From Symbiodinium natans (Eukaryota; Sar; Dinophyceae; Suessiales; Symbiodiniaceae), in contig CAJNDS010001680.1 of the NCBI GenBank assembly GCA_905221605.1, forward strand, positions 383,501 to 447,500: a stretch of DNA of 64,000 nucleotides. The letters are read 5' to 3'. This document shows, piece by piece, positions 4,141 through 64,000 of this stretch (positions are counted from its first letter, which is position 1; each line of letters opens with the position of its first letter). Under the pieces are notes generated by a model, which made no database searches, was not told the origin of the DNA, and was given only the letters and a program-made list of their open reading frames with translations. The position numbers and the translations under genes are program-made.

Positions 4141-4254
4141 CTTGCAGGCTCATGGGTAGATATACGTAGGGTTATAAGTACCCCAAGTAAGGTTATAAGT
4201 GTAGTTACCCTACTTATAACTCACTTATACTGTAGCTACCCGTGAACCTCCAAG
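4141..4254. repeat. Fold-back element, family B
   Basis: Left end CTTGCAGGCTCATGGGTAG. Right end is the reverse complement of CTTGGAGGTTCACGGGTAG. The arms continue with GTTATAAGTA on both sides. Confidence 0.65.
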
Positions 4255-21262: not shown

Positions 21263-21470
21263 CCCTAAACCCTAAACCCTAAACCCTAAACCCTAAACCC
21301 TAAACCCTAAACCCTAAACCCTAAACCCTAAACCCTAAACCCTAAACCCTAACCCCTAAAACCTAAACCCTAAACCCTAAACCCTAAACCCTAAACCCTA
21401 AACCCTAAACCCTAAACCCTAAACCCTAAACCCTAAACCCTAAACCCTAAACCCTAACCCTAAATCCTAA
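21258..21470. repeat. Longest ITS array, (CCCTAAA) about 30 units
   Basis: About 210 bp with a few variants (CCCCTAA, CCCTAA). Confidence 0.97.
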
Positions 21471-21482
21471 GAGTGCTTATAG

Positions 21483-21560
21483 GGCGCATCCGATGGAATG
21501 AGGCAGTGGCGACAGCTGAAGCAGTGCCCGCCAGCACAGCTGCCACCGGAGGATGCTGAG
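21483..21560 (+). CDS. Exon-like island with GTGAGG donor
   Basis: Directly after the 30-unit C array. The frame opens after TAG 21480, has ATG at 21498 and reads MRQWRQLKQCPPAQLPPEDA. The donor GTGAGGGTTTAGGG at 21561 leads straight into T repeats. Could be a first coding exon or an internal one. Confidence 0.48.
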
Positions 21561-22149
21561 GTGAGGGTTTAGGGCTTGGGGTTTAGGGTTTAGGGTTTAG
21601 AGTTTGGGGTTTACGGTTTAGAGTTTAAGGTTTAGGGTTGAGGGTTGAGGGTTTAGACGACCCCAACTAAGCCCCTAAGACCTACATCCTAAACCCTAGA
21701 CCCTTTTTGGGTTTGGGGTTAGGGTTAAGGTTTTTAGGATTTAGGGAAAAGCCGCACTTTTCAGGTCCTAGTGAAGTCCTGCCCTGCGATGCACTTCGCC
21801 TGGCTATAGGTTTAGGGTTTAGGCTTAGGGTTTAGGGTTTAGGGTTTAGGGCATAGGGTTTAGGGTGTTCGGGCTTTTGGTAAGTACAAGATCAGCAAAT
21901 CCACAACCCCGGAGGCAAATCCCAAACCCTAAAGAGCCGAAAGCCGAAAGCCGCCTGCAGATGCCCTCCTGGACCCCTCTGTCAAACAGCCGAAGGACTT
22001 GACGTGTACCTTCAGCCTTCTTTGCCCTGAGACGGGCCGGGCCCCTACGAGGATTCTGTTGTTTTTCGCCACCCTCGGTGTGGGGTTGTTAGATTTCAAA
22101 CTCAACTCTTCTCCTCGCCCGGAACTCTTCTCCTCGCCCGGTCTACTCG

Positions 22150-25001: not shown

Positions 25002-25070
25002 ATAGCCTTGACAAATCAAGACCCCAAACTCTGGGCCGAGATCTGAAGCTGCAACACTACTCTCCCGCAG

Positions 25071-25137
25071 CGCGGGCCCCAAGGAACTCGGGGGGCGCGA
25101 CGTGGTCAGCAATGTGGGCATTCTTGCCAGCCCAGTG
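25071..25137 (+). CDS. Exon flanked by opposed telomere arrays
   Basis: Acceptor CTACTCTCCCGCAG (ends 25070) with a good pyrimidine tract; frame AGPKELGGRDVVSNVGILAS then PV; donor GTAGGGTTTAGGG at 25138. The 14-unit C array lies 70 bp upstream and the 15-unit T array starts inside the donor. Reading continues open into the repeat. A minus frame is also open. No family recognised. Confidence 0.52.
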
Positions 25138-25138
25138 G

Positions 25139-29890: not shown

Positions 29891-30503
29891 GTCCTAGGTT
29901 TCTGTGGGCTTGGGGCCTTTCAGGGGTGGGAAGAAGCCAGAAAACACCCTAGGACAATGTCCTAGGTTTCTGTGGGCTTGGGGCCTTTCAGGGGTGGGAA
30001 AAAGCCAGAAAACACCCTAGGACAATGTCCTAGGTTTCTGGTGCTTGGGGCCTTTCAGGGGAGGGAAGAAGCCAGAAAACACCCTAGGACAATGTACTAG
30101 GTTTCTGGTGCTTGGGGCCTTTCAGGGGTGGGAAGAAGCCAGAAAACACCCTAGGACAATGTCCTAGGTTTCTGGGGCTTGGGGCCTTTCAGGGGTGGGA
30201 AGAAGCCAGAAGACACCCTAGGACAATGTCCTAGGTTTCTGTGGGCTTGGGGCCTTGCAGGGGTGGGAAAAAGCCAGAAAACACCCTAGGACAATGTCCT
30301 AGGTTTCTGGGGCTTGGGGCCTTTCAGGGGTGGGAAGAAGCCAGAAAACACCTAGGACAATGTCCTAGGTTTCTGTGGGCTTGGGGCCTTTCAGGGGTGG
30401 GAAGAAGCCGGAAAACACCCTAGGACAATGTCCTAGGTTTCTGGGGCTTGGGGCCTTTCAGGCGTGGGAAGAAGCCAGAAAACAGCCTAGGACAATGTCC
30501 CAG
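29891..30503. repeat. Minisatellite, 66-68-bp unit, nine copies
   Basis: Unit starts follow at 29891, 29959, 30027, 30094, 30161, 30228, 30296, 30362 and 30430. Each junction carries CCTAGGACAATGTCCTAGG, a 19-bp palindrome with one central mismatch. Units contain GGGCCTTTCAGGGGTGGG and AAGCCAGAAAACACC. Copies differ by a few bases and by 1-2 bp indels. Open frames across it (GLSGVGRS repeats) are repeat-driven. Confidence 0.93.
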
Positions 30504-30599
30504 GGCTGAAAGCCTCCAAGCCATTACAAAAGTCTAAGCCCAAACCCCAACCCAAAACAACACCTTCAACCGACAGCAGGCAGCCGACGTCGTGGACGA

Positions 30600-48350: not shown

Positions 48351-48490
48351 CCTTGATCCGATGGATTTCCCTGCTGAGCAATCTTGATCCGATGGATTTC
48401 CCTGCTGAGCAATCTTGATCCGATGGATTTCCCTGCTGAGCAATCTTGATCCGATGGATTTCCCTGCTGAGCAATCTTAATCCGATGGAC
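48351..48490. repeat. 31-bp tandem repeat, about five copies
   Basis: Unit CTTGATCCGATGGATTTCCC plus TGCTGAGCAAT; starts at 48352, 48383, 48414, 48445 and 48476. Confidence 0.95.
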
Positions 48491-48502
48491 TTCTTGAGCT
48501 TG

Positions 48503-49860
48503 CAACAGCATCTTCAGCTGTAGCACGGACTCTGGGCCTTTGCTTCCCGCCGTCACGCAAAGAAGTCCTCAGCTGCAGTACGGCCTGCGGGCCTTTGCTG
48601 GCCGCCGTCAACCTGTAGCATCTTCAGCTGTAGCACGGACTCTGAGCCTTTGCTTCCCGCCCTCACCCAAAGAAGTCTTCAGCTGCAGTACGGCCTGTGG
48701 GCCTTTGCTTCCCGCCGTGAACCTCTAGCATCTTCAGCTGTAGCACGGACTCTGAGCCTTTGCTTCCCGCCGTCACCCAAAGAAGTCTTCAGCTGCAGTA
48801 CGGCCTGTGGGCCTTTGCTTCCCGCCGTCAGCCAAGAGCATCTTCAGCTGTAGCACGGACTCTGAGCCGTTGCTTCCCGCCGTCACCCAAGAAAGTCCTC
48901 AGCTGCAGTATGGACTTTGGGCCTTTGCTTCTCGCCGTCAAACAACAGCAGCTTCAGCTGTAGCAAGGACTCTGGGCCTTTGCTTCCCGCCCTCACCCAA
49001 AGAAGTCCTCAGCTGCGGTACGGACTTTGGGCCTTTGCTGGCCGCCGTCAACCTGTAGCATCTTCAGCTGTAGCACGGACTCTGAGCCTTTGCTTCCCGC
49101 CGTCACCCAAGAAAGTCCTCAGCTGCAGTATGGACTTTGGGCCTTTGCTTCTCGCCGTCAAACAACAGCAGCTTCAGCTGTAGCAAGGACTCTGGGCCTT
49201 TGCTTCCCGCCCTCACCCAAAGAAGTCCTCAGCTGCAGTACGGACTTTTGGCCTTTGCTGGCCGCCGTCAACCTGTAGCATCTTCAGCTGTAGCACGGAC
49301 TCTGAGCCTTTGCTTCCCGCCGTCACCCAAGAAAGTCCTCAGCTGCAGTATGGACTTTGGGCCTTTGCTTCTCGCCGTCAAACAACAGCAGCTTCAGCCG
49401 TAGCACGGACTCTGGGCCTTTGCTTCCCGCCTTCACCCAAAGAAGTCCTCAGCTGCAGTACGGGGTTGGGCCTTTGCTTGCCGCCGTCAAGCAAAGGCAT
49501 TTTCAGCTGTAGCAAGGACTCTGAGCCTTTGCTTCCCGCCGTCACCCAAGAAAGTCCTCAGCTGCAGTACGGACTCTGGGCCTTTGCTTCCCGCCGTCAA
49601 GCAACAGCATCTTCAGCTGTAGCACGGCATCTCGGCTTTTGCTTCCCGCGTCACTCAACGAACTCCTCAGCTGCAGTACGGGCTGTGGGCCTTGGTTCCC
49701 GCCGTCAACCAACAAAATCTTCAGCTGTAGCACGGACTCTGGGCCTTTGCTTCCCGCCGTCACTCTGGGCCTTTGCTTCCCGCCGTCACCCAAGAAGGTC
49801 CTCAGCTGCAGTACTGACTTTGGGCCTTTGCTTGCCGCCGTCAACCAACAACATCCTCAA
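48503..49860. repeat. 110-bp satellite built from two 55-bp halves, about 12 copies
   Basis: Each dimer has a TCTTCAGCTGTAGCACGGAC half and a GTCCTCAGCTGCAGTACGG half, both running into GGGCCTTTGCTTCCCGCCGT. From 48840 to 49400 a 220-bp order appears (AACCTGTAGC alternates with AACAACAGCAGC). As 110 is not a multiple of 3 the frame shifts each copy, giving overlapping ORFs on both strands; the longest is 49310-49948 (212 codons). Coding is unproven. Confidence 0.93.
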
Positions 49861-49929
49861 TTCTAGTCTCCAAGCTCCCGGCCCCGCCCTCCCCGCCCCT
49901 CCCTCTGTGATGTGGTTGCGGGTTGGTCT

Positions 49930-50930
49930 GATGGTCTTAGGGTTTTAGGGTTTAGGGTTTGAGGGTTTCGGGTTTAGGGTTTAGGCTTCAGAGTCTATAG
50001 GGTTTAGGGTTAGGGTTTAGGGTTCAGGGTTCTGGGTTTAGGGTTTAGGCTTGAAAGGCTTAGGGTCTAGGGTTAGGGTTTAGGGTTCAGGGTTGAGGTT
50101 TAGGTTTTGGGGTTTGGAAAAAGGGCAAAAGGACACCGCTCAGACCCTAAATCCCAAAAGCCGTACAAGCCCTCAACCCCTTTGCCCCTTTGCCACTCAC
50201 CCTAAACCGTAAACCCTAGCGCCAAAAACCTAAACCCTAAACCCAGAACCCTAAACCCTATACCCGAAACCCTAAACCTCAAACCCCAAACCCCAAACCC
50301 CAAACCCTAAACCCTAAACCCTAAACCCTGAACGCGAGCCCTCAAACCCCTTTACCACGCGGCCAGCAAGGGGCTGGCCGCCCCGTGCAGGTCCCGTCAC
50401 ACTGCGTCGGCGTTTTTTGGGGCCCTCAACCCTAAACCCCTAAGCCCTGCAGAGCCTTAAACCCCGAACCCTAAACCGGGTTACAGGCTTCCGCTTCAAA
50501 GTCACAAATCCTCAGCCCTAAACTCTAAACCGGTCGGCGACCAAGGACCATGGAAGAGGTGTGCCTGATGCTGCGATGGTGCCAGGACGGCAGGAGCCAG
50601 CTCTAACTCCTGGGTTGCAGCCGATCGGGGAAAGGCAGCCCGCCTGCTCGACTTCAAGGTGGGTTTAGGGTTTAGGGCTTAGGGTTTAGCGTCCAACAAG
50701 CAAAGTTTGTTGTGCTGTTGCCGCCCTCCCCGCTCTCCTCCCCCCACCGCATTCCCCACCCTCCGCCAGAAGGCAGAGGGGGAATACTTAGGGTTGGGCA
50801 CTGAAAACCCTAAACCCTAAACCTTCAGCCTTCAGATGAGTGCATCGAAATATTCTTAGGAGAGTTTCCCACTTTTGTGTTTCAAGCACAACATAGGGCA
50901 AAACCCGAACTTCCCTTTTAGTGCCGAAAC
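49930..50930. repeat. ITS mosaic, T-type then C-type
   Basis: TTTAGGG tracts at 49938-50110; CCCTAAA/CCCCAAA tracts at 50200-50330; scattered units to 50825. No exon supported. Confidence 0.8.
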
Positions 50931-50944
50931 ACTGAAACCCCTGA

Positions 50945-52245
50945 TATATAGATGTATATATACATTTATAGATATAGAGGTATATGTCTATATAGATATA
51001 AATATCTGCATATATATATATATAGATATATAGGTTTATAGATATATAGACTTATAGATATATAGATACATAGACTTATAGATATATAGAAATATAGATA
51101 TATAAATATATACATATATAGATATATAGATATATAGATATATAGATATATAGATATAAAGATATATAGACATCTAGATATCTAGATATATAGATATATA
51201 AGACATCTAGATATCTAGATATATAGATATATAGATACATAGATATAGATATAGGTATCTAGATATATAGATACATAGATATAGATATATAGATCTATAG
51301 TATATAGATATATAGATATGATATATAGATATCAGATATACAGATATATATATATATATAGATATATGATATATAGTATATATATATATAATATATATAT
51401 AGAGATATATATAATCATATATATATATTATATATATATAGATAGACATATAGATATAACAGATATATAGATATATAGATATATAGATATATATATAGAT
51501 ATATAGATATATAGATATATAGATATATATATAGATATATAGATATATATATAGATATATATATATATATATATGTAGGTATATAGATAATATAACTATA
51601 TAGATATGTATATAGATATATAGATATAGATATAAATATATAGATTATAGATATATAGATCTAGATATCAGATATATAGATATATAATATATTATATATA
51701 TGTAGATAGATATAGAGCATATATATAGATATATAGATTATAGATATAGAGATATATAGTCTAGATATAGATATATATATATAGATATATATATATAGAT
51801 ATAGATCTATATAGATATATAGATATATAGATATAGATATATATATAGATATATAGATATATAGATATAATGATATAGATATATATATAGATATATAAAG
51901 ATAGTTATAGATATATAGATATATAAATCTAGGGATATATAGATATATATATATATATATCTATATATATATACATCTATATATATCTATATAGATATAT
52001 ATCTATATAGATGTATAGTTAGACATATAGATATATAGATATATAGACATATAGATATATAGATATATACATATATAGATATATAGATATATAGATATAT
52101 AGATATATAGATATATAGATATATAGATATATAGATATATAGATATATAGATATATAGATCTATAGATATATAGATATATAGATATATAGATATAGAGAC
52201 ATATCGATACAGATATAGATATACATGTAGATATCGAAATTATAT
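50945..52245. repeat. 1.3-kb AT-rich (GATATATA)n satellite
   Basis: Units AGATATAT and variants (AGATATAG, ACATATAG) throughout. ORFs of Y/I/S repeats are artefacts. Confidence 0.97.
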
Positions 52246-52394: not shown

Positions 52395-53200
52395 CGTCAG
52401 CCATACATACTACTCTGCACCACTCACTGCGAAGGCTACTTACTGAAGATTCCTGAGATCGTGGAGGCTCTGTTGTGCACAGGCTTCGCTAAGTAGAAGA
52501 GTCGTTAGTAGGAGGGTAGCCTGAGGTAGGACGCCTGCGCGAGCGCCGTGTAGGCCGCGTGTCCAACGTAGCTGGTAGGTGGTGTCTGGGTGGCAGGAGG
52601 GTAGGCCCGCTGTGCGCACGCAAGGTAGCATGCAGTGGGAGTTGTAGGAGCCAGATTGGCAGCTGCCATCACATTATTTCTTTTCTGCTGCTTTGCTGTA
52701 CCATCGTCTCAGAGGCGTGACCGCTCAGGGCATGGGCCTGGATTTCTTCATAATGTCTGTTGCGCTTGGCATGGGCCGGGTCGTAGACCTGCAGTGCTCG
52801 ACCTCCCACCTCTCGGAATCAGCCCTAAACACAAGATCCTAAACCCTAAACCCCAAACCCTGAAAACCCTAAACCCTAAACCCTAATCCTGGTGCGCATT
52901 GCCCTTTCTGATTGGCAGGCACTGGCCACAGAGGATGCTGCGCCAGAGGCCCGCAGACACTCTGTACGTGGGTTCTGTCAAAACATCCAAAGGGTTTAGG
53001 GTTTAGGGTTTAGGGTTTAGGGTATGGGGTTTAGGGTTTATAAGGGTTTAGGGTTTAGGGTTTAGGGTTTAGGGTCAGGGCCAGGCAACCCCCCCCATTC
53101 TCGAGCCGAGAATGGGGGGGGGTGGAAATATGGCCTTGAAAAGCCAGGCGCACCCTCATTCTCGAGCCGAGAGCTGGGCGGTGAAGGTTTTGGGTTTTGA
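52395..53200. other. Unique DNA then short ITS tracts
   Basis: Open frames on both strands at 52440-52886 without a clear choice; C tract at 52830-52885; T tracts at 52990-53075. Confidence 0.45.
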
Positions 53201-58800: not shown

Positions 58801-59050
58801 GTGCGGATTCATCCCAGAGCTCAAGCGCGACTGGACGGTTGAGAAGCTGACCCCGAAGGTCACTTGGGCGGGGCCGGGCTCCGAGCCAGACAAGGACTCG
58901 CCCACCACGCTCTTCCTCTTTGCCTCCTTGGGGGACAGTGACTGGCCCGGCCAGATCACCTCGGACTTCTTCCGCCCCTTGAACGCAATCCCGCTCGCCA
59001 ATTCGCTGGAGAACGCTGTGCTGCATGTTTGCAAGAAGCCGCATTTCAGT
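58801..59050 (+). CDS. Second exon of the 58.5-59.6 kb gene
   Basis: Acceptor GTAGTGACTGGGCAG (ends 58800). Stop-free frame CGFIPELKRDWTVEKLTPKV then TWAGPGSEPDKDSPTTLFLF and DFFRPLNAIPLANSLENAVL. Strong third-position GC. The end is near 59050 (PHFS), where an intron to about 59099 shifts the frame. No family recognised. Confidence 0.55.
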
Positions 59051-59098
59051 GTCGTATTTGTGTCATTCCTCAAGCCTTGGTCTTCTGAGTCAACTTCT

Positions 59099-59606
59099 GA
59101 GGCTATCAATGCATGCGGCGCTGACGCGTCACGGGCTCGCGCCAGAGACGTCGACCGACGCCCTCTGGAACAAGTCCGCCTTGCAGTTGCAGGACTACGT
59201 CCACGTGCTGATGTTGCAGGTCCCGACAGAAGCCTTGTTCGACATGGGGCTCGGCCGCATGGGGCCGCATTTTGTCCTGACAGATGACCCGGCAGTGATC
59301 TTCGAGAAGGACCAGCCTGACAAGGCCTGGATCCGGCAGGGCGGCCAGCGCAAGTACGAGGCATCGTGCATCAAGGGGAAGGCGACGCTGGAGTGGACTC
59401 AGGGCCCAACGGAGACTCTCGAGAAGCTGCTCGCGCAGGCCAATGTCCATTCGTTGCGGGCGCAGCACGCTCGCCTCCTGGCCGAGGCTGGAGAAATTGC
59501 CGCTGACATCGCGTGGTACTCGGCCATCGTTGAGACGGCAAGCAGTGATCAAAAGGGCCAGAAGCGCCCTGAGCCAGGGTCGGACGGAAAGGAGCCGTGC
59601 CCCTAG
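59099..59606 (+). CDS. Terminal exon of the 58.5-59.6 kb gene
   Basis: Acceptor ACTTCTGAG (ends about 59098). About 168 codons to TAG 59604: LSMHAALTRHGLAPETSTDA, DYVHVLMLQVPTEALFDMGL, EKDQPDKAWIRQGGQRKYEA, a helical ARLLAEAGEIAADIAWYSA, and a polar tail SSDQKGQKRPEPGSDG. AG+G joins the previous exon in phase. It looks like a soluble globular protein with a helical C-terminus. Function unknown. Confidence 0.6.
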
Positions 59607-59763
59607 TCTAGACTCACTAGACCAGATCATGCGCAGGCTCTGGAAGGGCTGATGGCCCGCGACGAGCCACTTTAGGACCACATGAGCGCACTGAAACCTG
59701 CATCCCTTGTTGCTCTGGTGCCACAGCGGCAATGGCATGGTCTCATTCATAGGTGCGCTAGTC

Positions 59764-59940
59764 AGGTCTGTAAGTTCCTGGCTGCAGACGCAAGCTGAAG
59801 TACGCATGTGGTTTCTTTCGGATCCAGAGCACCAAGGTTTTTTTGATTCTGCTTTGCAGTATGTCCTGACTGGCAAGGTCCCATGGCCTGATCAGAAAGT
59901 GGTGCAGAGTATTGGCTTGCGATCAGCACAGGTAGCTTGA
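59764..59940 (+). CDS. Exon-like ORF after the previous stop
   Basis: Frame RSVSSWLQTQAEVRMWFLSD then PEHQGFFDSALQYVLTGKVP, TGA at 59938. It could be the last exon of another transcript or an alternative 3' exon. AG at 59766 may be the acceptor. Confidence 0.4.
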   Translation, partial: RSVSSWLQTQAEVRMWFLSDPEHQGFFDSALQYVLTGKVPWPDQKVVQSIGLRSAQVA

Positions 59941-60129
59941 AGAGCAACGTGATTGTTCGGCAATGACCCCGCGATTTCTTCGTCGTGAGGTTAGGGTTTG
60001 GGGGTTGGGGTTTGGGGTTTAGAGTTAGACAACGAGCTCAGGGTGTAGGGTTCAGGGCCCTTAACGCCTTAAGCAAGCGGGCACGTATACAGGTTTCGGT
60101 TTGTGGGTTACGAGGGATATAAGGGTTTT

Positions 60130-60990
60130 AGGGCCCCTAAACCCTGCTAAACCCCAAACCCGAGAACTCCCTGAAAAGCCTCAGCCCTCTTATCAACCTG
60201 AAGGTGCTCCTCTAGTCCTTCGGCGGGATCTACGGGCTTTTGGGTTTTGGGGTTGAAGGGTTGATAGGGCAAAAAGGGAGATAAGGGTTTTAGGGTTTTA
60301 GGGTCCCTAAACCCTACTAAACCCCAAAGATCTACGGGCTTTTGGGTTTTGGGGTTGAAGGGTTGATAGGGCAAAAGGGAGATAAGGGTTTTAGGGTTTT
60401 AGGGCCCCTTAAACCCTGCTAAACCCCAAAGATCTACGGGCTTTTGGGTTTTGGGGTTCAAGGGTTGCTAGGGCAAAAAGGGATTTAAGGGTTTTAGGGC
60501 CCCCTAAACCCTGCTAAACCCCAAACCCGAAAACCCCCTCAAAAGCCTCAGCCCTTCGGCGGGATCTACGGGCTTTTGGGGATTGGGGTTGGGGGCTTGA
60601 TAGGGTGAAGAGCCGAAAACTCCCTCAAAAGCCTCAGCCCTCTTATCAACCTGAAGGTGCTCCTCTACTTGGAGGTTCATGGTACCTACCAACCAATTAT
60701 AACTGGGCTTATTAGAACTGGGATAACCCCTATAAGGCCCTCTAGGGGTATTATAAGTAGGGTTATAAGTACAGTTATAATTGGTTAGTAAGTACCATGA
60801 ACCTCCGTCGGCGGGATCTACGGGCTTTTGGGGATTGGGGTTGCGGGGTTGATAGGGTGAAGAAGGATTTAAGGGTTTTAGGGTTTTAGGGCCCCTAAAT
60901 CCTGCTAAACCCCAAACCCGAAATCTCCCTGAAAAGCCTCAGCCCTCTTGTCAATCTGAAGGTGCTCATCTGGCCCTTCGGCGGGATCTG
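60130..60990. repeat. Compound tandem repeat, about six units
   Basis: Units carry GATCTACGGGCTTTTGGG, GGTTGATAGGGC, AAGGGTTTTAGGG, CCTGCTAAACCCCAAA and, in three units, AAAGCCTCAGCCCTCTT plus AACCTGAAGGTGCTCCTCT. Unit length varies from about 100 to 190 bp. Minus frames repeat NPKTQKPVDPAEGLEEHLQV, perhaps an old exon copied within the array. Confidence 0.85.
60668..60806. repeat. Fold-back element, family B, near-perfect and recently inserted
   Basis: Arms CTTGGAGGTTCATGGTACCT and CATGAACCTCC; almost all of the 139 bp pairs with itself. It interrupts one unit of the compound repeat; the neighbouring units at 60205-60235 and 60950-60985 show the site without it. Confidence 0.85.
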
Positions 60991-60999
60991 CTTCACCAC

Positions 61000-61290
61000 A
61001 TGGCCCCAGGCGGAGCGGAGGGAAGACGGCGCCAAGGATTACCGTTTACGGGTTTTTATAGGATTTGGGGTTTCAAGGGTTCAGGCTTTCACGCTCGAAC
61101 TTTATCCTTTGAAACTTTAAGGTTTATAGTACCGGGTTTGGGGCTTCTGCCTTTGAGTTCGTGGGGAGCTTTTAGAGTTGTAGTCCCGGTGCTGGGTTCG
61201 GAACCCCAAGTATGCCCCGTCCAGTCTGGACGGCCGATAGTCGGGCTTCGGAACCGCCAGCCCCGGCAGTGGAGCAACATCCCCACAATT
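61000..61290. other. Unassigned segment
   Basis: A + frame of 97 codons (61000-61293) and shorter minus frames are open; residue mix does not favour one clearly. Confidence 0.35.
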
Positions 61291-61294
61291 TGAT

Positions 61295-61504
61295 TTACAT
61301 GCCCTGGCCCACCATGCCATTGTGCAGGTTCATGACATAATAGTCGCAGTATCCACCGTCCTGCTCGGACGGTGTATATTGCAGGTTGACGCTCGGAAAC
61401 CGCGAAGATGAGTGACAACTCTCCCCGCGCCAGACGCGAAATTCAATGGTGAAGCAGGGCCCCAGGGTAGCATCAGCCCTGGCGACGCAATGGCCATCAC
61501 GCAC
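61295..61504 (-). CDS. Possible exon, minus strand
   Basis: Frame GPCFTIEFRVWRGESCHSSS then VNLQYTPSEQDGGYCDYYVM, ending at a stop at 61295. Aromatic and cysteine residues give it a domain-like look. If real, it is a separate gene, opposed to the one at 61637. Confidence 0.35.
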   Translation of the reverse strand: MRDGHCVARADATLGPCFTIEFRVWRGESCHSSSRFPSVNLQYTPSEQDGGYCDYYVMNLHNGMVGQGM

Positions 61505-61636
61505 GAGTCCAGGCGTGTCCCTCTCACCGAAATTTCCTTGCAGGACCGATGTTGACTTGCCTCGTGCGATGTGGGGTTAGGCTTTCGTTTTGACTTCTAA
61601 CAAAGCACTTCTGATGTCACGGAGACGTGTTGTCAG

Positions 61637-62277
61637 CACCTGTTGAGGATGATAGTGGGTGGAGGGCTTTGACACAATCCCGTGTCGATGACCTGTACGA
61701 GGAGATCGTGAAAGGCCAGTGGGGCAAGAGCAACCTGGCGCCACCTTCTTTACTGGTCACTTCGAGTGTCTCTGGCCTCCAACCGGTTCCGAGCCAGAAG
61801 GATTCATTGTGGAGGTTGGGCAACGGCAAGCATTGCGTCCGAGCCTGGGCCACGTACCTGGAGAAACAAGCGCTGACCACACCAGAGACGATTGCAGCCG
61901 CAGCAGGCGATGGCTCGCTTGACTGCCTTGGTGCAGAAGGCAAGCTGGTCGTTACGGTTGGCCTGATGTGCCAGCTGGTAGAGTATGATTCCACCGACGC
62001 CCAGGACATTCTCATGCACATGGGTGTCCAGCACGATGCAGAGTCCGTCTCGAACACGTTCCAACAAACCAGCTTGCAATCGAAATACGACATCGTGGTT
62101 GCTGCGCAGGCAAGAGTGGCCGGCGGGACCCTCGACGCGGCCGTAAAGCTGCTCACGGACCAATTTGGTGCCAGCAAAAAGGCAACTTTCTGGCGTTGGG
62201 CCCACATGAGAGACGTGCTGCCGGAGCAAGTCAGGGTCAAGTTCGATGAACGGCGCGGCTTCATGCCACAGGGCTAT
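61637..62277 (+). CDS. First recognised exon of the 61.6-64 kb gene
   Basis: Acceptor GTGTTGTCAG (ends 61636). 213 stop-free codons: PVEDDSGWRALTQSRVDDLY, EEIVKGQWGKSNLAPPSLLV, NGKHCVRAWATYLEKQ, TPETIAAAAGDGSLDCLGAE, DIVVAAQARVAGGTLDAAVK, LLTDQFGASKKATFWRWAHM. The start (R-V-D-D-L-Y-x-x-I-x-x-G, then L-G-N-G-K-H) faintly recalls ParB/Srx-like domains; this is a guess. The frame meets TGA at 62293; a GC donor at 62278 (TAT then GCTTTT) would continue in phase into the next exon. Confidence 0.6.
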
Positions 62278-62328
62278 GCTTTTCGTACGCACTGAGGTGT
62301 GCACTTTGTATGGTTATCATAGTTACAG

Positions 62329-62647
62329 GGTTGCCAGAGCTTCGGCCTGCACCAACACCAGGTCTTTGACAATCGCTACATGACTGGCGTTGGAGAGGCA
62401 TCAAAGTTCAGATTGGGCCCAGTGTGGGCCATCGCTGCTTTCGAGCTCTTGTGTGACCACTTGGACGGGCAGCCTGACCCATCCGCCAGAGGCGTCACAG
62501 CCGCGCAGTTTGCCAGCGACTTTTGCAGGCCCTTGAAGGCCGGAGAGACATGGTGCAAGCAGCAAATGAGCAACTTCAAGAAGGTTGCAGAGTCATCCGG
62601 CAGCTTTCAGTGTCTCGTCTGCAGCTGGCGCATCGGGGTCGTCACAT
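62329..62647 (+). CDS. Second exon of the 61.6-64 kb gene
   Basis: Acceptor TCATAGTTACAG (ends 62328). Frame GCQSFGLHQHQVFDNRYMTG, KFRLGPVWAIAAFELLCDHL, FASDFCRPLKAGETWCKQQM, NFKKVAESSGSFQCLVCSWR. A GA donor at 62648 (ACAT then GAGGTTAG) would give a codon phase that fits the next exon; otherwise the frame stops at TGA 62647. Confidence 0.55.
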
Positions 62648-62731
62648 GAGGTTAGTATGAGCAGTGACACGGTAAAGTCTTGAAGTGATGAGCTCTGACA
62701 CGAAGGCGTGTTTCTGCTTGGCTGCGGACAG

Positions 62732-62803
62732 ACAAGGGCCGCAAGGCTGTGTTGAAGTGCTTGAGCGAGAAGGTGCCGCTCCCAGCTTCCTTTTGGAGAT
62801 ACT
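62732..62803 (+). CDS. Third exon of the 61.6-64 kb gene
   Basis: Acceptor GGCTGCGGACAG (ends 62731); frame KGRKAVLKCLSEKVPLPASF then WRY; consensus donor GTAAGT at 62804. 72 bp. Confidence 0.6.
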
Positions 62804-62817
62804 GTAAGTCAACAAGC

Positions 62818-62873
62818 TCAGGGTTTAGGGTTTAGGGTTTAGGGTTTAGGGTTTAGGGTTTAGGGTTTAGGGC
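62818..62873. repeat. Interstitial telomeric array (TTTAGGG)8 inside an intron
   Basis: Starts 14 bp after the donor at 62804, so it lies in the 5' part of an intron. Confidence 0.95.
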
Positions 62874-63307
62874 ATTAGGACCACGAGGGTCTGAGAGTGT
62901 TGCTAGGACTTTCCGGCCAGGACATCATAGCCCGGATGCAAAAAGGATATTGAAAGGATATTAGGGCTCAGGGTTTAGGGTTGAGGGTTACGGTCTCGTC
63001 CTCTTCTCACGGTCTCGTCCGCTTCTAGGGGTTGTGGGCTGTCACGGTCTCGTCCGCTTTTACGGCTTTTGGTAGGGTTTCGGGTTTGGGTTTATGAGTT
63101 AGGGTTTAGGGGCTAGGTTTAGGGTTTATAGAAATTGTAAAGGGTTTGTGTCCGGAGTTTTGAGGTTTTGGGGTGGTTTTGGGGCTTCTGTGATTTTGAC
63201 TTTGGGGCTGGGCTGGCACTGGGGCTGGGGCTGAGGGTAGGGCTGGTAGGCTGCGGCACTGTGGGTTGGGGGGTGTGGGGGGGAATGAGTCGCAGTGGAG
63301 GCTGCGT

Positions 63308-63384
63308 GTCAAGTAAGGAAAGGAAAATCTTTGCGGACATCGCGGATATGCCCGCCGCGTACGCCGCGGGTATCCCAACAATGT
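63308..63384 (+). CDS. Probable exon of the 61.6-64 kb gene
   Basis: Frame SKERKIFADIADMPAAYAAG then IPTML. Possible acceptor GTGTCAAG or TAAGG before 63316. The limits are approximate; on the right the frame enters G-rich low-complexity DNA. Confidence 0.42.
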
Positions 63385-63658
63385 TAGGGAGGGGCGGGAG
63401 GGGCTGGATGAGGCGGGTTGTGTGGGAGGGGGTGAGTGGTGGGAGAAGCACGTGGTGCTTTATGGGGGGGGGGGGCTTGAACGCCGAAGCATGTCGTGCT
63501 TTATGGGGGGTTGTCAAAAGTGCTGGAAGTGGCCCAGGTTGGGGGTTTCGAGCCCCGAAACCTGGACTTGGGCCAGAAGAGGGCTTGGGGGAGTGGGGGA
63601 GGGGAGCGGCTGGAGGAGCTGGAGGGGCCGGAAGGGCTGGAGGGCTGGAGTTGTGAAG

Positions 63659-63721
63659 CAGGTTATTGTGCGAGCTGCTCGTAATGAATCACATTCAATT
63701 CCATTTATCCTGGTCTTGAGG
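63659..63721 (+). CDS. 63-bp exon of the 61.6-64 kb gene
   Basis: Acceptor GGAGTTGTGAAG (ends 63658); 21 codons in phase at both ends, QVIVRAARNESHSIPFILVL then R; the donor is GTTTAGGGTTTAGGG at 63722. The composition resembles a beta-strand segment. Confidence 0.6.
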
Positions 63722-63824
63722 GTTTAGGGTTTAGGGTTTGGGGTTTGGGGTTTAGGGTTTAGGGTTTGGGGTTAGGGTTTAGAGGGTTTAGGGTTTAGGG
63801 TTTGTTTCTTCTTGTCCTGCTGAG
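63722..63824 (+). other. Telomere-repeat intron (103 bp)
   Basis: Starts GTTTAGGGTTTAGGG, consists of about 12 TTTAGGG/TTTGGGG units and ends with the pyrimidine-rich TTGTTTCTTCTTGTCC and CTGCTGAG. Both neighbouring exons are in phase 0 and their joined frame stays open to the window end. Confidence 0.6.
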
Positions 63825-64000
63825 GTGTCCATCAGCACGCTGCAAGAGCTCAAGGGCATGACCGAGCAGCTGAAGGAGATGCTGAAGGCGAGTGCAGGCG
63901 CAGGTCGTGAGGCCCAAGCAGAAGCCTCCGTGCCAGCGGGGACAACTGCCTCAAAGACGGATGAACCGTCTGGTGATGTGGAGGTTCACAATGACGACGT
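63825..64000 (+). CDS. Exon running off the right edge
   Basis: Frame VSISTLQELKGMTEQLKEML then KASAGAGREAQAEASVPAGT, TASKTDEPSGDVEVHNDD. The first half looks like an amphipathic helix or coiled coil; the rest is a polar linker. Truncated by the window. Confidence 0.62.
   Translation, partial: MSISTLQELKGMTEQLKEMLKASAGAGREAQAEASVPAGTTASKTDEPSGDVEVHNDD

Follow-up and report, generated by a model that had tools for sequence, protein, structure and literature searches.

Near the right-hand end of a 64,000-nt stretch of Symbiodinium natans DNA (hereafter the window), an array of telomere-type repeats lies just upstream of an open reading frame. This arrangement raises the question of whether the repeat of chromosome ends serves as intron sequence in a protein gene and, if so, whether the repeat itself supplies the 5′ splice site. 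The window corresponds to positions 383501-447500 of a 763-kb contig, so the array occupies a non-terminal site and is interstitial; TTTAGGG is the dinoflagellate and plant telomere type, according to PMC11453091. A first-pass annotation had drawn a coding exon at 63659-63721, joined in phase to a second exon downstream, with the telomere heptamer at 63722 as the GT donor. The elements that bear directly on this proposal are as follows (slashes in sequence motifs mark splice junctions).

63659..63720, + strand: 62-nt conserved end of a repeat unit, equivalent to the drawn exon (40 copies in 20 fetched loci)
63719..63803, + strand: the telomere-type array in question (from the sequence and a scan for perfect runs)
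63804..63824, + strand: pyrimidine tract and AG acceptor (from the sequence)

The downstream half of the proposal was borne out by the letters. GTTTAGGGTTTAGGG begins at 63722, and about 12 telomere-type units follow, some of them degenerate (TTTGGGG, TTAGGG), such that telomere runs make up 68% of 63722-63824. Next come the pyrimidine tract and TGAG that had been described (TTTGTTTCTTCTTGTCCTGCTGAG, last base 63824), and then a frame reading GTG TCC ATC that starts at 63825, not 63826, is open to the window edge as claimed, and goes on as a 212-aa ORF. We conclude that the acceptor TGAG/GTG and the exon downstream of it are sound.

The upstream half fared differently. Both drawn pieces are indeed open in phase 0, but this does not set them apart from chance. 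Among the 133 telomere arrays tested on the two strands, a frame open for 21 codons or more runs up to a GTTTAGG at 92; for 25 of the 133, including the array considered here, there is also an AG/G no more than 60 nt away, from which 40 codons or more stay open in phase. An in-frame join of this kind is therefore expected by chance. A window coding model trained on six stretches (+0.42 to +0.81 bits per codon, GC3 0.61-0.81) scored 63659-63721 as non-coding, at -0.11 bits per codon with a GC3 of 0.33. Scores as low as this were reached by 3.9% of 21-codon windows from the training stretches in leave-one-out scoring (n = 77), and 34.7% of open background windows scored at least as high as the drawn exon (n = 2,150). 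No pyrimidine tract lies upstream of the drawn exon, and a protein search whose query included its 21-aa peptide matched only the window's own exon-4 ORF. Moreover, the drawn exon is a copy of a 62-nt repeat that has a conserved place directly before telomere arrays. Although the open frame and phase 0 on both sides speak for it, we consider it very improbable that 63659-63721 is a coding exon (QVIVRAARNESHSIPFILVLR joined to VSISTL) with the heptamer at 63722 as its donor. Indeed, the heptamer is not the donor at this array, because the intron begins about 1 kb further upstream, behind an exon whose end is near 62772 or 62803. What survives of the proposal is its central idea, since a protein gene very likely has the array at 63719-63803 within one of its introns; it was the upstream boundary of that intron that was drawn wrongly.

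The gene into which the array falls, and the repeat elements within its intron, are laid out as follows.

61675..62277, + strand: exon E1 of an uncharacterised gene, with uncertain 5′ start and exact 3′ end (match to P0001; no Pfam match)
62329..62640, + strand: exon E2, with an ORF that stays open to 62646 and an uncertain 3′ end (open frame; paralog L033; no Pfam match)
62734..62772, + strand: exon E3, short, may extend to 62803 (collinear with the paralog in a global alignment)
62773..63824, + strand: E3/E4 intron, 1,052 nt with the donor at 62773 (frame and paralog)
62820..62872, + strand: perfect (TTTAGGG)n array, 47 nt after AAG/GTGCCG or 16 nt after GTAAGT
63073..63184, + strand: start of the repeat unit, with the motif TTTATAGAAATTGTA...GTTTGTGTCCGG (87-89% identical to units in L012)
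63825..64000, + strand: exon E4, extending past the window edge (ORF P0002, 212 aa; two distant paralogs)

E1 is identical to P0001, a 236-aa ORF on another contig, at 126 of 226 aligned columns (56%). A 42-column stretch of E2 is 43% identical to the paralog L033 (E 1e-4), and the ORF of E4 is 30% identical to two distant paralogs (E 1e-7 and 1e-6); E3 has no local match in the paralog. Matches to E2, E4, E5, EA and, weakly, EC (E 0.009) occur in the paralog in the same order. L033 and its counterpart L034 are 99.85% identical to each other over 9.5 kb and represent haplotypes or recent duplications; the same applies to the 5-kb gene end at 59001-64000, which has a second copy (99.98%) on the contig L010. 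Most of the exon calls are without a family match. Three protein searches, whose reach was limited to proteins that have short words in common with the query and a length 0.55-1.75 times its own, returned only P0001 and P0002, and a scan of viral contigs with P0001 returned nothing. Pfam gave nothing over cut-off for the window ORFs, for the joined EA/EB peptide or for ten single exons. Rfam and tRNA scans of the 64-kb window were empty, and the dinoflagellate spliced leader had no match within it. Donors of GC and GT type, AG/G acceptors and the TTTAGGG arrays are all in keeping with a dinoflagellate.

Two donors come into question at the end of E3. The phase-0 site AAG/GTGCCG at 62773 is weak, but in phase with the acceptor at 63824; GTAAGT at 62804 is the best consensus donor, yet out of phase with that acceptor and with E4. 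The sequence 62737-62802 is coding-like, which favours the later end of E3, although this stretch belonged to the training set. Hence, GT...AG ends with in-frame exons are obtained at E3/E4 only with the weak donor GTGCCG. The E3/E4 intron consists to 16% of telomere runs and contains both arrays and the drawn exon, whereas the equivalent intron of the paralog is about 130-133 nt long with 0% telomere runs.

Much of this intron is a repeated unit. In the window, the array at 62820-62872 is followed by the unit start (about 63073-63184), a GGCTGG-rich body, the 62-mer and the array at 63719-63803; the unit as a whole is a telomere array, a G-rich body of about 0.6 kb, the 62-nt conserved end and a further telomere array, and it also occurs in tandem on short contigs. 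When copies were counted from 45 aligned nt upwards (one shorter copy was dropped), a TTTAGGG array directly followed the 62-mer in 39 of 40, a figure that is biased because the query used to find these loci itself contained the array. A genome search with 63650-64000 gave at least 98 matches; it covered 759 Mb in 2,543 contigs with 40 of 718 candidates scored, so that these match counts are lower bounds. Two matches were full-length (the window's own sequence and a perfect copy on a different contig), 38 covered the 62-mer and array, and 58 covered the array. By simple arithmetic, copies of the 62-mer recur every 0.5-6 kb on several short contigs. Seven short contigs (L012, L016, L017, L024, L025, L026 and L028) carry repeated units ending in the 62-mer and (TTTAGGG)n, possibly as a subtelomeric satellite; in the seven tandem-unit loci checked, telomere arrays have a single orientation per locus. 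Four of the tandem-unit contigs begin or end in telomere repeat, which may reflect assembly breaks. The 62-mer itself contains a palindrome, which in many copies reads ACGAGCTGCTCGT; in addition, ACAATTTCTATTTA ahead of the array is partly mirrored by TTTATAGAAATTGT behind it (63659-63720 and copies).

One alternative is an introner-like mobile element, in which a module of array, unit and array inserts and thereby creates or enlarges introns. Copies of the unit are present in the window intron and probably also in a channel gene intron (L014 2946-3461; see below), and introners are already known in dinoflagellates, as stated in PMC11453091. However, introners would be expected as many near-identical copies, each a whole intron at a new position; here, the E3/E4 intron has a paralog equivalent, as does the EA/EB intron described below, and the unit is also found in tandem. 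Because the paralogs have equivalents, these two introns were enlarged rather than created there. Pfam searches of eight unit ORFs, moreover, found no transposase or reverse transcriptase. Their sole match over cut-off was a Josephin domain (PF02099, 30.2 bits, cut-off 26) at L024:3269-3697 on the - strand, flanked by two copies of the 62-mer that are separated by about 6 kb. We regard an introner-like origin as unlikely.

The array-bearing intron is not the only one in this gene. The apparent E4/E5 intron, at about 64356-64596 in continued coordinates, has degenerate telomere repeats and is missing in the paralogs (compared with L033 4507-4520), in which the equivalents of E4 and E5 form one ORF; it is a candidate for intron gain or loss. 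The E5/EA intron has a C-strand array before its acceptor, and its equivalent in the paralog is, by eye, repeat-free. The clearest case is the following intron.

65745-65884, 1.7 kb past the right-hand window edge: EA/EB intron, 140 nt (frame and paralog)

Telomere runs make up 60% of this intron, which begins inside an array (G/GTTAGGGTTTAGGG): the end of exon EA, ...TCAATCAAGCAGG, is followed by GTTAGGGTTTAGGG..., giving the donor G/GTTAGGG. The acceptor ahead of exon EB is CCCAACTCCCAG/GC, and the predicted splice joins ...AAGCAGG to GCCTCATCC. With 65745-65884 removed, 209 aa are open in one frame, whereas read-through meets stops in all three; EA and EB are both coding-like. In the paralog, the corresponding intron is 86 nt long, has a GC donor and 0% telomere sequence, and is likewise in phase 1, also after Q inside a Gly codon. 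A gapped BLAST alignment of EA/EB with the paralog has 21 of 81 identical columns (E 2e-6) and places the junctions 6 columns apart; given this offset and a paralog identity of about 30%, the two introns are in the same place only within alignment error.

Similar arrangements were found in a second gene, on L014, pieces of which read in order as exons of a voltage-gated cation channel. Ten joined pieces, the joins being guessed, matched the Pfam family Ion_trans (32.3 bits, cut-off 25) across the first five pieces; EF-hand matches were below cut-off (E 0.007 and 0.017). The later pieces, from the EF-hand on, are putative parts of the channel, assigned by these sub-threshold matches and by motifs typical of such channels. 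The EF-hand exon has a C-strand array ending about 10 nt ahead of it and a G-strand array starting about 9 nt past its GC donor; a further G-strand array lies just upstream of the S4-S5 exon.

L014 2595-2853: intron after the EF-hand exon, AAG/GCGGGGGGATAGGGTTTAGGG...CGCTCTCGCCAG/GAG, 259 nt, phase 0

This intron consists to 39% of telomere runs. The copy of the 62-mer unit at L014 2946-3461 is intronic provided that the gene includes the piece at 4168, as it probably does. GT or GC...AG ends with in-frame exons were thus found both at 65745-65884 and at L014 2595-2853. On the evidence of reading frames and homology, telomere-type heptamers appear to act as donors in this genome, most clearly at 65745-65884.

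We consider it likely, from these sequence comparisons, that the array belongs to a spliceosomal intron running from 62773, or possibly 62804, to 63824, that the repeated unit brought it there, and that the heptamer can be a donor. On this reading, telomere-type arrays are a common intron component in this genome. The window has 84 perfect runs of 21 nt or more (76 after merging, 41 versus 35 by strand), and five other 10-kb stretches, taken at round coordinates from five large contigs that also carry 62-mer copies, have 20, 11, 3, 0 and 21 arrays. Of six loci obtained by a Cpn60 search, five lacked any array of two perfect units, whereas the sixth had two. The exons called here have 0% telomere runs in 3,083 nt compared with 12.4% of window 1-61000, a contrast that arises partly by construction because an array has stops in every frame. 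The window also contains a 67-nt tandem repeat (29891-30504), a 55-nt-spaced repeat (48393-49866) and a low-GC stretch (33%, 8-nt-period repeats; 50001-52000).

These counts bear on whether the arrays are real. Repeats are hard to assemble, and the 5-kb gene end occurs twice, at 99.98%, possibly as two haplotypes. Nevertheless, arrays are present in four of the five other stretches, and the frames join in phase over two introns; an assembly artefact is scarcely credible.

A high density of arrays on both strands is also what ordinary interstitial telomeric sequences (ITSs) would produce, if telomerase had placed them at breaks or recombination had spread them, and if they were purged from exons but tolerated in intergenic DNA and introns; the donor at 65745 would then be an isolated accident. 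A break-repair origin is reported for mammalian ITSs (PMC7215372 and PMC2246262). Purging alone, however, does not predict the asymmetry of array flanks seen in two samples. The flank 5′ of TTTAGGG was more coding than the 3′ flank for 60 versus 34 of 94 arrays (P 3e-4; window below 60 kb, 150 nt), an effect that was weaker at 250 nt (57 versus 37 of 94, P 0.015). In the five other stretches, the split was 48 versus 17 of 65 (P 2e-4; 90 nt) in a single analysis whose training set included one misframed exon (4 TGA codons); the window run was clean. Nor does purging predict that array pairs within 150 nt of each other, around short coding-like cores, mostly point outward (12 versus 3 inward, P 0.0026), although at up to 1000 nt the excess is weak (21 versus 16, P 0.052). 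We regard the ITS explanation as a serious contender that we nonetheless do not favour.

The 12 outward pairs (CCCTAAA, a core of 81-148 nt, TTTAGGG) lie at window 315-53075, for example at 402-534, 21458-21578, 25002-25138 and 52887-52990. Several cores look exon-like by eye, and the 12 have nothing in common at E < 0.05 outside telomere-like stretches. Outward pairs and flank asymmetry together fit exons with the C strand before and the G strand after. Strong flanks were coding in sense and antisense equally often (29 versus 29 of 58), so the flank test does not assign an array to the donor or the acceptor end of an intron. In the two genes whose sense is known, donor sides had four G-strand arrays and one C-strand array within 60 nt (by eye), and acceptor sides had two clear and two degenerate or borderline C-strand arrays and three G-strand arrays, and hence no bias; these arrays are too few for a test of strand bias.

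A more far-reaching proposal is that telomere arrays are working splicing modules genome-wide. Behind an exon, the G strand would give the donor G/GTTTAGGG and G runs acting as splicing enhancers; ahead of an exon, the C strand would give the branch site and pyrimidine tract; and the ends of an intron, being complementary, could pair and loop it out. We find this doubtful; if it were true, introns would now be routinely built from what is ordinarily a product of telomerase.

Under the interpretation that we prefer, arrays most likely accumulate in introns through break repair or recombination, as well as being carried in as part of the dispersed unit. Selection would keep exons free of arrays, and an array that reaches a donor could take it over, because GGGTTTAGGG offers G/GT. 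Comparison of frames and paralogs suggests that a tolerated insert can become a used splice site in this way. If transcripts agree, this genome has made chromosome-end repeats into intron sequence at large scale, with the repeat carrying a splice site. Introns could grow or be renewed along this concrete route, and the handling of G-rich, self-complementary intron ends by the spliceosome could be tested in a natural system. There is also a caution for annotation, since short 'exons' adjoining telomere arrays may be repeat ends. Among the best matches in the literature surveyed, which was thin on subscription journals, there was no report of telomeric repeats as introns or splice donors.

Several known systems share features with the arrays described here. 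Like ITSs, they are short TTTAGGG-type arrays away from contig ends; they differ in their density (0-21 per 10 kb in sampled stretches), in their position at exon edges and in their apparent use as 5′ splice sites. As in the dinoflagellate introners of Roy et al. 2023, cited in PMC11453091, a repeated unit lies inside an intron; unlike those introners, the unit, at most a candidate mobile element, has enlarged an intron already represented in the paralog, contains telomere arrays and is also found in tandem. Plant telo boxes, which PMC3022908 describes as short telomere motifs in 5′ regions of genes, likewise associate telomere motifs with genes, whereas here long arrays lie at intron ends. 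Finally, telomere-associated (subtelomeric) satellites also have tandem units separated by telomere arrays, in one orientation per locus as in the seven loci here, but the present unit is also dispersed inside large contigs.
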